Source: a virus. Taken from it: a stretch of 22,287 nucleotides of DNA. The notes under the pieces are model-generated. The model had not been told where the DNA came from, searched no databases, and saw only the letters and a program-made list of their open reading frames with translations. The position numbers and the translations under genes were made by a program. Position 1 is the stretch's first letter; the number at the start of each line of letters is the position of its first letter. Of the stretch, positions 4,520 through 8,834 are shown in pieces. Where the stretch lies: IMG/VR virus record IMGVR_UViG_3300033146_004211, positions 1 to 22,287 of that record. The stretch is one strand, 5' to 3'.

Positions 4520-5113
4520 TTATGGCCAATTTGATATGGCTATATTTATCCCAGCGGCTACGGGTGCATATTGAACCAACCAGGCACGCTCTAACACAGT
4601 TAAACTCTCCGCTATTTCTACAGATACGGACCCTGTTTCAGGTACTGTTACAATAGATTCAATACCAAAAGCATTTTTAATGTAAGTGTATATATTTGGT
4701 ATAGTCGGTGAAACATTAGTTGCAAAAATTTTTGCTTTTATTAATACTCTGAACTTGTCATCATCAATTCTATCCGTAGTTGGTAAACCAAAACCGTCCA
4801 TGTAATGCCCACCATTTAAACCGGTTGAATCACTGAAACCCTCTGTAGTGCTTATCTCCGACACTGTTCCATAGGTGAAAATATTCTCCTCTGATTCATA
4901 CGGTCTGGACAAAACTCCGACTATAACACCAATTGTGTCCAACCATACACCAGAAGCTGTATCCAAAAATCTATAAAACATTAGATAGTCAATCAGGCTG
5001 TCTGTGTCATCAAACCTATTATTAATAACCTTAATTAAATCTATTAGCCTACCTGTAATCTTAAACTGGTCGGGCAATCTGTCAATCATTTTTTGGCCCA
5101 GCAAAGAAGTCAT
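4520..5113 (-). CDS. DUF2612 baseplate protein (gpI / YmfQ-like position)
   Basis: This 197-residue protein matches the DUF2612 pattern: an N-terminal helical part (RLPDQFKITGRLIDLIKVIN), a FLDTASGVWLDTIGVIVGV segment (about 49-67), then GFGLPTTDRIDDDKFRVLIKAKI (about 106-129) and a C-terminal part ending in a hydrophobic GINIAISNWP. DUF2612 proteins occupy the place of P2 gpI, linking the gpJ wedge to the tail fibre. It overlaps the gpJ gene by an ATGA stop/start and is followed by the fibre gene after 12 bases. It would be part of the baseplate periphery and fibre attachment site. Confidence 0.82.
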   Translation of the reverse strand: MTSLLGQKMIDRLPDQFKITGRLIDLIKVINNRFDDTDSLIDYLMFYRFLDTASGVWLDTIGVIVGVLSRPYESEENIFTYGTVSEISTTEGFSDSTGLNGGHYMDGFGLPTTDRIDDDKFRVLIKAKIFATNVSPTIPNIYTYIKNAFGIESIVTVPETGSVSVEIAESLTVLERAWLVQYAPVAAGINIAISNWP

Positions 5114-6297
5114 TGTACCACCTCAATTAGCGCAATGGTAGTACTTGCAATTTCGCCCGGGCCAACAGGGATGGGGGTGTCAACTGCCGGGTTGGTCTCT
5201 TTAGATATTAGCAAACTTTTAATATAGTGTCCCGGGACTGCATTAACAGGACTGTATAATCTGGACGCAAAAACGTCATTGCCTAAACCATATGGCTCTA
5301 CCAATTTATTATCCAGATAAAATTTACCGTCAAAAAAATCAACAATATTTTGTTTTATTAAATCATCGCCATTGGATGGATACTCATTATCTCTAATCAA
5401 AGTTACTTTGATACTTATATCAATCTCTACAGGTCTCGAGAATTTTACATTATAAGTTTGACCTGTTACAGGGTCACTATGTGCAACCACAACCTCACCA
5501 TATTGGCCGACGCCACCGGCTCTTGAATTAAAAATCTTACTAGCAATATCTGCATCACTACCACCCTTGACAACCGGCCATATAGTATGTGCAGGGATAC
5601 CATATTCGTCAACACTTGATGTGTCGTTCTCATATACTCTTGCGAGTGACACATCATCAATTTCCATGATAGCTGTGTAAATGGCTACAACATTCGCATT
5701 ACCACTTTGGGCTGCCGCCTGTGCCCTTCGTGGTCTTAATTCTGTATCTGTTTCTTCATTAGCTCCCAGACTTGCATCAACACTATTAACAACACCTGCC
5801 CAGCCATACACTGGAGTCTCTATTTTCGTTAATGTCCCGTTAGGGGCAGCTATAGGCCCTTCGTTGATAGCTGTTACGGATACTGTTTTGGTTTCATCTG
5901 ACGCGAGAGTTATATTTGCATCGATGGCAAATTTCTCACCCACCAAAGGATCGGAGATTAAGGAGCCAGCTGGTATATTAGAGCCTTTATGGTTTGCGGT
6001 AACATCGACACTACACGTTGAGTGTCTCGATTCCTTGCGCTTAATACCATTCAACAAAACTAACTGGGATAAAAAAACATCTTTAGCCGAGTTGGGGTTA
6101 AACAGTCCTGCAACTAATTCTATTTTTTCATTTTGGTCAGACAGCCGCTCTGAAATCATACTACCCAGCTGACCAAATACAGACTCCAAATCAGTTCTCA
6201 CACCCTCACCAAAAGCGGTCTCCAGATCTGCATCATAGTCGCTTTTAATTTTATCATATCTGTCAATATAAATACCTGTATCATCAATTATGGACAT
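5110..6297 (-). CDS. baseplate J-like protein (wedge)
   Basis: This 395-residue protein is of the baseplate J (P2 gpJ/Mu gp47) family. It starts with a short helical segment (IYIDRYDKIKSDYDADLETAFGEG), has the conserved VFGQLGSMISERL and LFNPNSAKDVFLSQLVLLNGIKR stretch, the AGSLISD/VGEKFAIDANI beta domain, and the characteristic GANEETDTELRPRRAQAAAQSG segment (about 178-199), followed by the IYTAIMEIDDVSLARVYEND and HTIWPVVKGGSDADIASKIFNSRAGG regions. It forms the wedge of the baseplate with the gp25-like protein encoded just upstream. The ATG at 6297 starts one base after the gp25-like stop. The 3' end overlaps the DUF2612 gene by ATGA. Confidence 0.92.
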   Translation of the reverse strand: MSIIDDTGIYIDRYDKIKSDYDADLETAFGEGVRTDLESVFGQLGSMISERLSDQNEKIELVAGLFNPNSAKDVFLSQLVLLNGIKRKESRHSTCSVDVTANHKGSNIPAGSLISDPLVGEKFAIDANITLASDETKTVSVTAINEGPIAAPNGTLTKIETPVYGWAGVVNSVDASLGANEETDTELRPRRAQAAAQSGNANVVAIYTAIMEIDDVSLARVYENDTSSVDEYGIPAHTIWPVVKGGSDADIASKIFNSRAGGVGQYGEVVVAHSDPVTGQTYNVKFSRPVEIDISIKVTLIRDNEYPSNGDDLIKQNIVDFFDGKFYLDNKLVEPYGLGNDVFASRLYSPVNAVPGHYIKSLLISKETNPAVDTPIPVGPGEIASTTIALIEVVQ

Positions 6298-6298
6298 A

Positions 6299-6652
6299 TT
6301 ATAAACCTATCCCCGCTGTTATTTCACCATATACTGTATCAGCAGTAAATTCTACGGTTGCTAAATGGTCATCAGGATTTAAACCAAATTCAAATCTTAA
6401 AATCTGATTCACACCCGGTGTTTTCCTTATCGTATCTTTTAATATCTTCGCTTTTTGTTCATAACTGGTTGTCATATCAAACATTGCATCATACCACGGA
6501 ACACCAATTAAGAAATTAAAAAAGTTTTCGCCTTCAATAAACAATAATCTAATCCCTGCATTCTGGGCCACCTCCGGCCCGTCAATTATTAGCTCTAAAT
6601 CACCATTTTTCATTGATAAGTTATAATCAATATCTAGTTTTAAATCAATCAC
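6299..6652 (-). CDS. gp25/GPW-like baseplate wedge protein
   Basis: A small (117-residue) gp25-like baseplate protein. The sequence shows LDIDYNLSMKNGDLELI near the N-terminus, NAGIRLLFIEGENFFNFLIGVPWYDAMF in the middle and an ILKDTIRKTPGVNQI segment towards the C-terminus, as in DUF2634 and gp25-type proteins that join gpJ in the wedge and dock on the sheath. The open frame extends to a GTG at 6682, but the GTG at 6652 is preceded by GGAAAGGTG at the right distance and fits the family length better. This start gives an 8-base overlap with the upstream gene (ATGTGATTGA). The gpJ gene follows after one base. Confident on family, less on start. Confidence 0.8.
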   Translation of the reverse strand: MIDLKLDIDYNLSMKNGDLELIIDGPEVAQNAGIRLLFIEGENFFNFLIGVPWYDAMFDMTTSYEQKAKILKDTIRKTPGVNQILRFEFGLNPDDHLATVEFTADTVYGEITAGIGL

Positions 6653-7055
6653 ATGACACCTTTCCGTCCTGACCGGCTTCACTCACCTTGACAGTACACG
6701 AGCATGGTACCACCGCCCCGCTGGCATTATTTGTAAATGAGCCGACACAGTTACCGGCATCGTCAATGCGCATAACTGCCCGATTGTCATCTTTAGTTTT
6801 AACTGCACTGGCAAGAGTAGTACCACCACCTGCAACAAATGTATGGGCAGCAAGGGTGTGTGGACAGGGCAATGCCGCTGTAAATGTATAACTAATGTTG
6901 ACTAGAGCTATTGCATTATTATCAATTTTTGTTTTAGCCGATTCGGTGGTCATTACTGAGATTTGGTCAACACTTAAATCACCAGCGTAAACAGTGCCGC
7001 CTGGTGCAACATTATCAAATTTTATTTTTAAGTTCTTAGTTGCAATTAATTTCAT
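6645..7055 (-). CDS. Cys/His-rich baseplate protein, possible PAAR-like spike tip
   Basis: This 136-residue protein is not one I recognise with certainty. The N-terminal half (about 1-55: KNLKIKFDNVAPGGTVYAGD) resembles a small beta domain. The C-terminal half has CPH at 64-66, a further His71, then Cys103, PCSC at 117-120 and Cys135. The order CPH, then Cys, then PC recalls PAAR-like tips, in which such residues bind a metal at the point of the spike. The gene is coupled by an ATGA overlap to the spike gene directly upstream and overlaps the gp25-like gene downstream, so a baseplate role is well supported by context. The tip assignment is inference; an alternative is a baseplate accessory protein with an unrelated cysteine cluster. 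Confidence 0.55.
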   Translation of the reverse strand: MKLIATKNLKIKFDNVAPGGTVYAGDLSVDQISVMTTESAKTKIDNNAIALVNISYTFTAALPCPHTLAAHTFVAGGGTTLASAVKTKDDNRAVMRIDDAGNCVGSFTNNASGAVVPCSCTVKVSEAGQDGKVSCD

Positions 7056-7657
7056 GCGTCCACCGTCAAATGCCCATTTAAATCAATCTTACCGCTGCCA
7101 TCAATACTAATACTACCGCTGCCATTATCAATATTAATAATATCGTCTTTAATATCAATAGTGGCGTCACCTGTGGCAATGTTGATATTATTATCAACTA
7201 AATGGATTATAGCATCACTATCAAGATTTTTCAATGTTAGGCCATCACCGACATCAAAACCACTATCAAAAGGCAACAGCCCCATTACAGCCACTGCATC
7301 AGAGATATTAAAAGTACGTGGGCTTTTGGCGTCTATAACATCACCTGATGAGTTTTTCCATGCGTCAATTGACCTTTGTGATACCAGTAGCAAAACCCAT
7401 GAATCAATAGCCGGTGGAGTAGTAACCCAGTAGCTGCCAGCCCCAAAATACATTATGGGTACATCTTCAAGTATGGGCATGGGTGTGGCATCTTTGCCCT
7501 TAAATTTTCTCTTTATGACAGGTTGAACAGATATTTTATTTTTACCGTCAAAAGCTGTTACCCGTCCCGGCAGGATGGTGTTGAGTTGCCCGGTCATGAT
7601 AGCATTAAAAATTTTGGGCAAGGCATGCTCAATACGTTCTTTGTGATTATAACTCAT
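7052..7657 (-). CDS. baseplate spike protein, Gp138 N-terminal type (gpV-like)
   Basis: This 201-residue protein matches the gp138/gpV spike pattern. An N-terminal OB-like domain (about 25-105) contains LPGRVTAFDGKNKISVQPV, then ILEDVPIMYFGAGSYWVTTPP and SWVLLLVSQRSIDAW. The C-terminal third (about 140-201) is a row of short alternating strands rich in Asp, Asn, Ile and Gly (INIATGDATIDIKDDIINI, then GSISIDGSGKIDLNGHL), as expected for a three-stranded beta-helix needle. It would sit as a trimer under the hub and pierce the outer membrane. It lacks an obvious HxH metal site at the C-terminus (only a single His), which fits a separately encoded tip. ATGA overlaps couple it to the hub gene and the next gene. 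Confidence 0.85.
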   Translation of the reverse strand: MSYNHKERIEHALPKIFNAIMTGQLNTILPGRVTAFDGKNKISVQPVIKRKFKGKDATPMPILEDVPIMYFGAGSYWVTTPPAIDSWVLLLVSQRSIDAWKNSSGDVIDAKSPRTFNISDAVAVMGLLPFDSGFDVGDGLTLKNLDSDAIIHLVDNNINIATGDATIDIKDDIINIDNGSGSISIDGSGKIDLNGHLTVDA

Positions 7658-8526
7658 TGTTTAAACCTCGAACTGATTAGACAATTAAAAGCCCCACCAT
7701 AATTATTACCAAAATATTTTATTTTGTTAACAATAAAAAGCCCCTCTGATTTTTTAGAGATTTTACCTTTTATATCTTTTTGAATATTACCTTTTTTGGA
7801 CCCATCCGGTGAAGCCCCTATCTGTATTAGACGTGACGGCTGGATATTTGATAATAATAATGTTTTAACATTTATGCCTTTGTCTGTTATTGTGGGCGTC
7901 CCAATGATACCTGTTGAAGGTGTCAATAGAGTTGCCTGGGAGTCATTTTTTGGTGGTGAAAAAAAATCCAAAATCTCAACAGTACCATGCTGTATTGACC
8001 ATTTTAACATATAATGAGATGTAATCTCGTTAAGTGCCATCCAGGCTTTACAGCTGAATGTCCTTGCGCTCGTAGTTTTTAAATTCTCATCATAATCAAG
8101 CACTACAGGCAATGCAAATGATGACGCAATATCATGTATAACATACTTGACGCTCATCCCTTTTGGGTATGTTTTTTCAAATATTGCTTCCTGAAATTCT
8201 TTTAATCCATCACCTGTCTCCAGGTGTGTGGCCCATGTCGGACCTATCTGTTCATGCTTGACAGTGCTTGAATCAGGATCCCAGGAACCTCTGAAAATCA
8301 TGCCAAGCTCATCACCATAACCGGCCCAGAACTCCATGCCACGGGTGGACTCAGAGAATAAATTGCGGGTAGTCTCACTCAAATTATACACTGATATTTT
8401 TGCAATGTTGGGTTTGCTGTCATCAGTTGCAATAATATCAAAGTCCATGTCCAAATTTTTAATAATGTATTTTTTACTGTTAACAAATACATGTAATTCG
8501 CAATGCCTGTCAAATAATACACTCAT
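7654..8526 (-). CDS. baseplate hub protein (gp27/gpD-like)
   Basis: This 290-residue protein lies between the plug and spike genes, where the hub is encoded in this phage type. The N-terminal part (about 14-120) is a beta-rich domain with KPNIAKISVYNLSETTRNLF and MEFWAGYGDELGMIFRGSW, a pattern shared with hub proteins of the gp27/gpD group. The middle holds MSVKYVIHDIASSFALPV and a WMALNEITSHYMLKWSIQHGTVEIL segment typical of the hub tail-protein fold, and the C-terminus ends in IVNKIKYFGNNYGGAFNCL. A trimer would form the platform between tube and spike. Both ends are ATGA overlaps. Confidence 0.78.
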   Translation of the reverse strand: MSVLFDRHCELHVFVNSKKYIIKNLDMDFDIIATDDSKPNIAKISVYNLSETTRNLFSESTRGMEFWAGYGDELGMIFRGSWDPDSSTVKHEQIGPTWATHLETGDGLKEFQEAIFEKTYPKGMSVKYVIHDIASSFALPVVLDYDENLKTTSARTFSCKAWMALNEITSHYMLKWSIQHGTVEILDFFSPPKNDSQATLLTPSTGIIGTPTITDKGINVKTLLLSNIQPSRLIQIGASPDGSKKGNIQKDIKGKISKKSEGLFIVNKIKYFGNNYGGAFNCLISSRFKQ

Positions 8527-8834
8527 TGTTTACCCACATATAAGAGCTGGTATCTATTTCCAAAATTATCAAAATCAGGATTATAATTTAAATTGTCAGT
8601 ATCTATAATCCATAATCGACCCAGTTCACGAATTGCAAAAGGGCTTAATATGTCCACGCCGGGGCCGAGAGCAATACCCTTAATATCTAAATTAAAAGTC
8701 AAACCCTTCATATCCATAACCCAAAATTTAGCAGTCTCATTCCATCTCAGAGTTATATCAACAGTTTCATTATCCAGATCAATAGTGAATTGCTGGTCAG
8801 GCTCTGGTACAGTTGGTATTACAAAACTTATCAT
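8523..8834 (-). CDS. baseplate plug protein (Pam3 gp18-like)
   Basis: This 103-residue protein resembles the baseplate plug family described from cyanophage Pam3. It opens with FTIDLDNETVDITLRWNETAKFWVMDM (about 16-42), followed by GLTFNLDIKGIALGPGVDILSPF (about 43-66) and RELGRLWIIDTD. Proteins of this sort sit inside the hub and close the tube until ejection. The gene lies between the Dit-like and hub genes and overlaps each by an ATGA junction, the conserved order in this tail type. Recognition is by pattern and position, not alignment. Confidence 0.78.
   Translation of the reverse strand: MISFVIPTVPEPDQQFTIDLDNETVDITLRWNETAKFWVMDMKGLTFNLDIKGIALGPGVDILSPFAIRELGRLWIIDTDNLNYNPDFDNFGNRYQLLYVGKQ

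Follow-up and report, generated by a model that had tools for sequence, protein, structure and literature searches.

The tips of contractile machines are as a rule identified through an HxH or PAAR motif. The HxH end of P2- and Mu-type spikes is a stiff, metal-held spike point built into the trimeric spike chain. In T4 the tip of the gp5 spike is a separate protein, gp5.4, which binds the last gp5 beta-strand (structure 4KU0; PMC4576200). PAAR proteins hold zinc through three His and one Cys, while the DUF4280/IglG group uses four Cys ligands and IglG carries an N-terminal extension (PMC5349215). The AlgoCIS spike bears a single PAAR-like Alg10 (PMC8894135), and in a baseplate related to the one described here E217 gp43 forms a trimeric tip (PMC10329688).

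The viral DNA analysed here (22,287 nucleotides, IMG/VR record IMGVR_UViG_3300033146_004211; hereafter the window) carries a minimal myophage baseplate in a minus-strand block ordered as tape measure, Dit-like protein, Pam3 gp18-like plug, E217 gp41-like hub, spike, proposed tip gene, gp25-like wedge, Baseplate_J, DUF2612, and fibre (Table 1). As originally predicted, the spike has no C-terminal HxH; it ends in KIDLNGHLTVDA, and its last strand is plain and beta-helix-like (...NGHLTV). The tip-gene ORF starts with ATG, overlaps the end of the spike gene by 4 nt, and also overlaps the start of the wedge ORF, for which comparison with relatives makes a GTG at 6652 (VIDLKLD...) the likely true start. 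Like T4 gp5.4, which is encoded in the corresponding position between the gp5 spike and gp6, and like phage PAAR proteins (PF05488), the gene lies between an HxH-less spike and a baseplate wedge gene. Its product, the window protein, is probably a separate PAAR-like tip that caps the blunt spike end, a reading well supported by gene position and modestly by sequence. It would do the same job as the HxH ends of P2/Mu-type and related spikes, but as a separate and presumably single-copy protein.

Table 1 Features of the proposed tip gene and the neighbouring baseplate genes in the window.
Feature	Coordinates	Strand	Basis
Proposed spike-tip gene, 136 aa, PAAR-like	6645..7055	minus	ORF; slot and synteny; remote profile match to phage PAAR
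First PAAR-like repeat, residues 33-52	6900..6959	minus	HHalign, Cys pair against PAAR profile, 76 columns
CPHTLAAH, residues 64-71, between the repeats: candidate metal ligands Cys64, His66, His71	6843..6866	minus	Kept in L002/L006, absent in L005 and L015
Second PAAR-like repeat, residues 78-101	6753..6824	minus	HHalign, residues 77-101 to a PAAR repeat
Cys103, four residues after Asp99	6747..6749	minus	Spacing equals Asp-x3-Cys of T4 gp5.4 (DPISC); kept in L002
Cys118-Ser-Cys120, further candidate ligands	6696..6704	minus	Kept in L002, absent in Cys-less members
Spike (central puncturing protein; 201 aa) with N-terminal PF18352 domain; beta-helix end blunt and lacking HxH	7052..7657	minus	Pfam E 4e-18; alignments
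gp25-like baseplate wedge	6299..6682	minus	phrog_120 E 6e-16
Baseplate_J wedge protein	5110..6297	minus	PF04865 E 2e-16
Baseplate hub (E217 gp41-like)	7654..8526	minus	phrog_196 E 5e-48
Plug (Pam3 gp18-like)	8523..8834	minus	PF22479 E 5e-22

Fifty-five distinct spike loci and one near-duplicate were compared for the slot that separates spike and wedge. Of these spikes, 27 carry HxH close to the C terminus, and in all 27 the wedge gene follows directly. All seven short, blunt beta-helix spikes are followed by an extra gene before the wedge, which belongs to the tip family in five and encodes a PAAR protein in two (Fisher P ~2e-7 for any ORF of at least 60 aa in the slot versus HxH, with the near-duplicate row L019 included). 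The two PAAR proteins, in L031(/L032) and L044, match PF05488 at E 5e-5 and 3.5e-3, just under the curated cut-off. The spike-tip role proposed for the window protein in the original prediction is supported by this exclusion of the extra gene from HxH spikes and by related phages whose slot holds a true PAAR gene. In the spike tree, L005 (blunt, with a tip gene) groups with L004 (HxH, no gene) with support 100/98, and L015 and L016 fall in a clade apart from both, so spike ends have been either exchanged or lost and regained. Slot pattern and tree together indicate that the tip gene substitutes for the HxH point.

In a third group of spikes the C terminus is extended by a helical-looking part in place of HxH, and some of these spikes are then followed by a small gene of 66-84 aa without a family match (L040:2343-2585, L043:2343-2585, L051:2376-2612, L059:2384-2638, L045:2374-2604, and similar), which perhaps encodes another tip or spike partner. 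Three spikes (L014:1909-2631, L062:1805-2614, and L069:1852-2631) have, close to their C-terminal end, a PAAR-like 'R.GD' piece and look as though a tip repeat had been built into the spike; those of L062 and L069 have an HxH in addition. A further gene of 223-228 aa lies between the PAAR gene and the wedge at L031:1874-2560 and L044:1981-2652, and the L031 product has no match in Pfam.

Relatives of the window protein were found largely through gene order. The protein has no homologue in Pfam, PHROGs, NCBIfam, the PDB, or 50,697 phage genomes, and no family-library match even at E 10. Single-sequence searches of these collections, plasmids, and viral and genome contigs returned only L002 besides chance matches, among which we count Rhizobium regulators. 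L002/L006 is the close relative, at 47-51% identity. Three others (L005, L015, and L016) were recognised in IMG/VR by synteny, in the slot spike / tip gene / wedge, which all five members of the family (the window protein and four relatives) occupy. With both the window protein and L006 left out of its construction, a family model still recovers the former at E 5e-8 and the latter at 2e-4, which ties the window protein to the Cys-less members by homology. Leave-one-out recovery succeeds for L005 (E 4e-13) and L015 (E 4e-24); L016 returns only at 0.039, making its membership tentative. A DNA pattern for FTGGNAxGF, a motif of the Cys-less members, retrieved only the two known members and three chance matches, and a J-protein scan of genome contigs yielded no relatives. 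We regard the PDB profile matches to Pizza designs and to a 'tail tip gp86' (E 0.2) as chance, and a literature search on the latter found no supporting paper. The family is most likely a diverged, library-invisible version of a known kind of part.

Whether the window protein binds metal is an evenly balanced question. The residues named in the original prediction (Cys64-Pro-His66, His71, Cys103, Cys118-Ser-Cys120, and Cys135) are all at the positions given there, and Cys makes up 5 of 136 residues against 0.48% for the other 26 genes of the window (binomial P = 5e-4, not corrected for 27 genes). Having only two His, the protein does not offer the PAAR site of three His and one Cys; a mixture of C64, H66, H71, C103, C118, and C120 is a possible candidate. 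These six residues are kept in L002/L006, and Cys135 is not. None of the set occurs in L005 or L015 and one Cys occurs in L016, so the set cannot define the family. Conservation among homologues thus backs the proposed metal site in one 51%-identical relative and fails to do so in the distant members, which leaves such a site plausible in the branch of the window protein only and not as a family trait. The main alternative, to which we give a substantial minority share of belief, is a spike tip without metal, in which the Cys and His residues serve for disulfide bonds or have no special role, and the core of the cone is enough to hold it together, as in Cys-less members. None of these residues is present in L005 or L015 though the family can be aligned, Cys135 is lost even in L002, and retention of six of seven residues at 51% identity is not significant alone (rough binomial P ~0.07). 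Against a metal-free tip in the window phage stand the Cys enrichment, the fit of Cys103 to the PAAR Cys spacing, and the location of the C-P-H-x4-H cluster where PAAR has its loop histidines: in the register of the Cys pair, C64-P-H66 falls within that loop.

Likeness to PAAR-like tips, also part of the original prediction, is supported only at the level of remote family profiles and does not extend to any Pfam family at threshold. Compared with a phage PAAR profile of 11 members, the five-member tip profile gives HHalign P 2.4e-4 and probability 43%; probabilities for the tip-PAAR comparisons are low throughout (5-44%). The best-aligned stretch places the repeat hairpin GGTTLASAVKTKDDNRAVMRIDDAG against 25 residues of T4 gp5.4. 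Wedge, J, and spike control profiles do not match PAAR. The relatives are needed for the match, since on its own the window protein does not pick out the profile of PAAR (rank 51 of 99 in HHalign, score 10.9); hmmscan and a six-frame search with PF05488 were likewise empty for it at E 10. When 1,081 ORFs are ranked with a PAAR HMM, the L015 tip comes directly below the true PAARs (E 5e-4); in the ranking by the tip HMM, the best sequence outside the family is the L031 PAAR (E 0.022). HHalign self-comparison detects no internal repeats in the tip profile and none in the PAAR profile either, which makes this comparison uninformative. The alignment of residues 33-52 with the first PAAR repeat reduces the extra N-terminal part to only ~30 residues, in place of the beta domain of about 55 residues that had been suggested.

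Convergence, in which a tip of unrelated beta fold resembles PAAR repeats merely in composition, could account for the low HHalign probability and the absent Pfam match, but we consider it unlikely because column-permuted alignments that keep composition, on either side, never reach the score (0/300; best 17.8 versus 28.7 for the real alignment), both the Cys-containing and the Cys-free sub-profile outscore 149 permutations, and alignment of just the Cys pair brings both repeats into register. An assembly chaperone or other baseplate linker, encoded after short spikes by chance, is less probable still: position alone is no proof of virion incorporation and the low-confidence AlphaFold (AF2) models (pLDDT 48 with 3 sequences, 41 with 5) are unusable as structure, but the gene never occurs with HxH spikes, PAAR proteins fill the same slot in L031/L044, and the family profile matches PAAR.

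As a proposed PAAR-like tip, the window protein shares with T4 gp5.4 and phage PAAR proteins two alignable repeats and a Cys four residues after the repeat Asp. It differs in its length (136 aa against ~97 aa), with a longer N terminus and inter-repeat loop, and it lacks PAAR motifs proper and stays under every family threshold; unlike phage PAAR, with its three His and one Cys, it is Cys-rich and has Cys-less relatives. In combining a PAAR-like body with an N-terminal extension and a candidate metal site built on Cys, the protein recalls DUF4280/IglG (PF14107), where, however, four Cys are conserved across members; the tip family has no such conserved set, which is absent from its distant relatives, and PF14107 is not matched at E 10. 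The CIS_spike_tip family (PF19267) of contractile injection systems would occupy the same functional position, but only L016 matches it weakly (E 0.17, 12.2 bits versus a cut-off of 24.1) and the window protein does not match. Searches for PF05488, PF19267, and PF14107 across the record gave no match, and full membership of the window protein in any of the three was rejected, no curated cut-off being reached.

The spike ends after its last beta-helix strand, without the iron-binding HxH point built into its relatives, and we hypothesize that the neighbouring gene supplies the point. A single copy of the tip would cap the flat end of the beta-helix of the trimeric spike and finish it to a point as gp5.4 does on gp5. 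Its cone would be formed by two PAAR-type repeats (~33-52 and ~78-101) and a weaker third at the C terminus (...V.V..AGQ). Cys64, His66, and His71 of the inter-repeat loop, with Cys103 and perhaps Cys118/120, may hold zinc or iron and stiffen this small cone in the branch of the window phage, while other family members would do without. Upon sheath contraction, the tip would be the first part to touch and breach the host envelope.

The family is new as a family and ordinary in kind, so that the 'new form of tip' proposed at the outset holds for a diverged family and not for a new mechanism. We suggest, with somewhat less than even confidence, that the minimal-myophage spike end is an exchangeable cassette (HxH point, PAAR protein, PAAR-like tip family, or helical extension plus small gene), and that a metal site was gained or lost within the tip family while the tip kept working; if true, metal is dispensable for a membrane-piercing tip. 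With Cys/His-rich as well as Cys-free members, the family would allow one to ask whether spike-tip metal serves piercing or only folding. Its invisibility to standard libraries, in the same slot as known tips, implies that tips are under-annotated in uncultured phages.

Before the tape measure gene, two overlapping minus-strand ORFs (window:11325-11956) with a GGGGGTTTTTTTTG run within the overlap have the typical appearance of a frameshifted tail assembly chaperone. A VRR-NUC nuclease gene adjoins an SNF2-type helicase gene (window:480-2313), the pair facing the tail block; L005 and L003 also have helicase genes of this sort next to their tail genes. The gene at window:2300-2929, flanked by those for the helicase and the fibre, encodes an N-acetylmuramoyl-L-alanine amidase (Amidase_3, E 4e-25), a probable endolysin.
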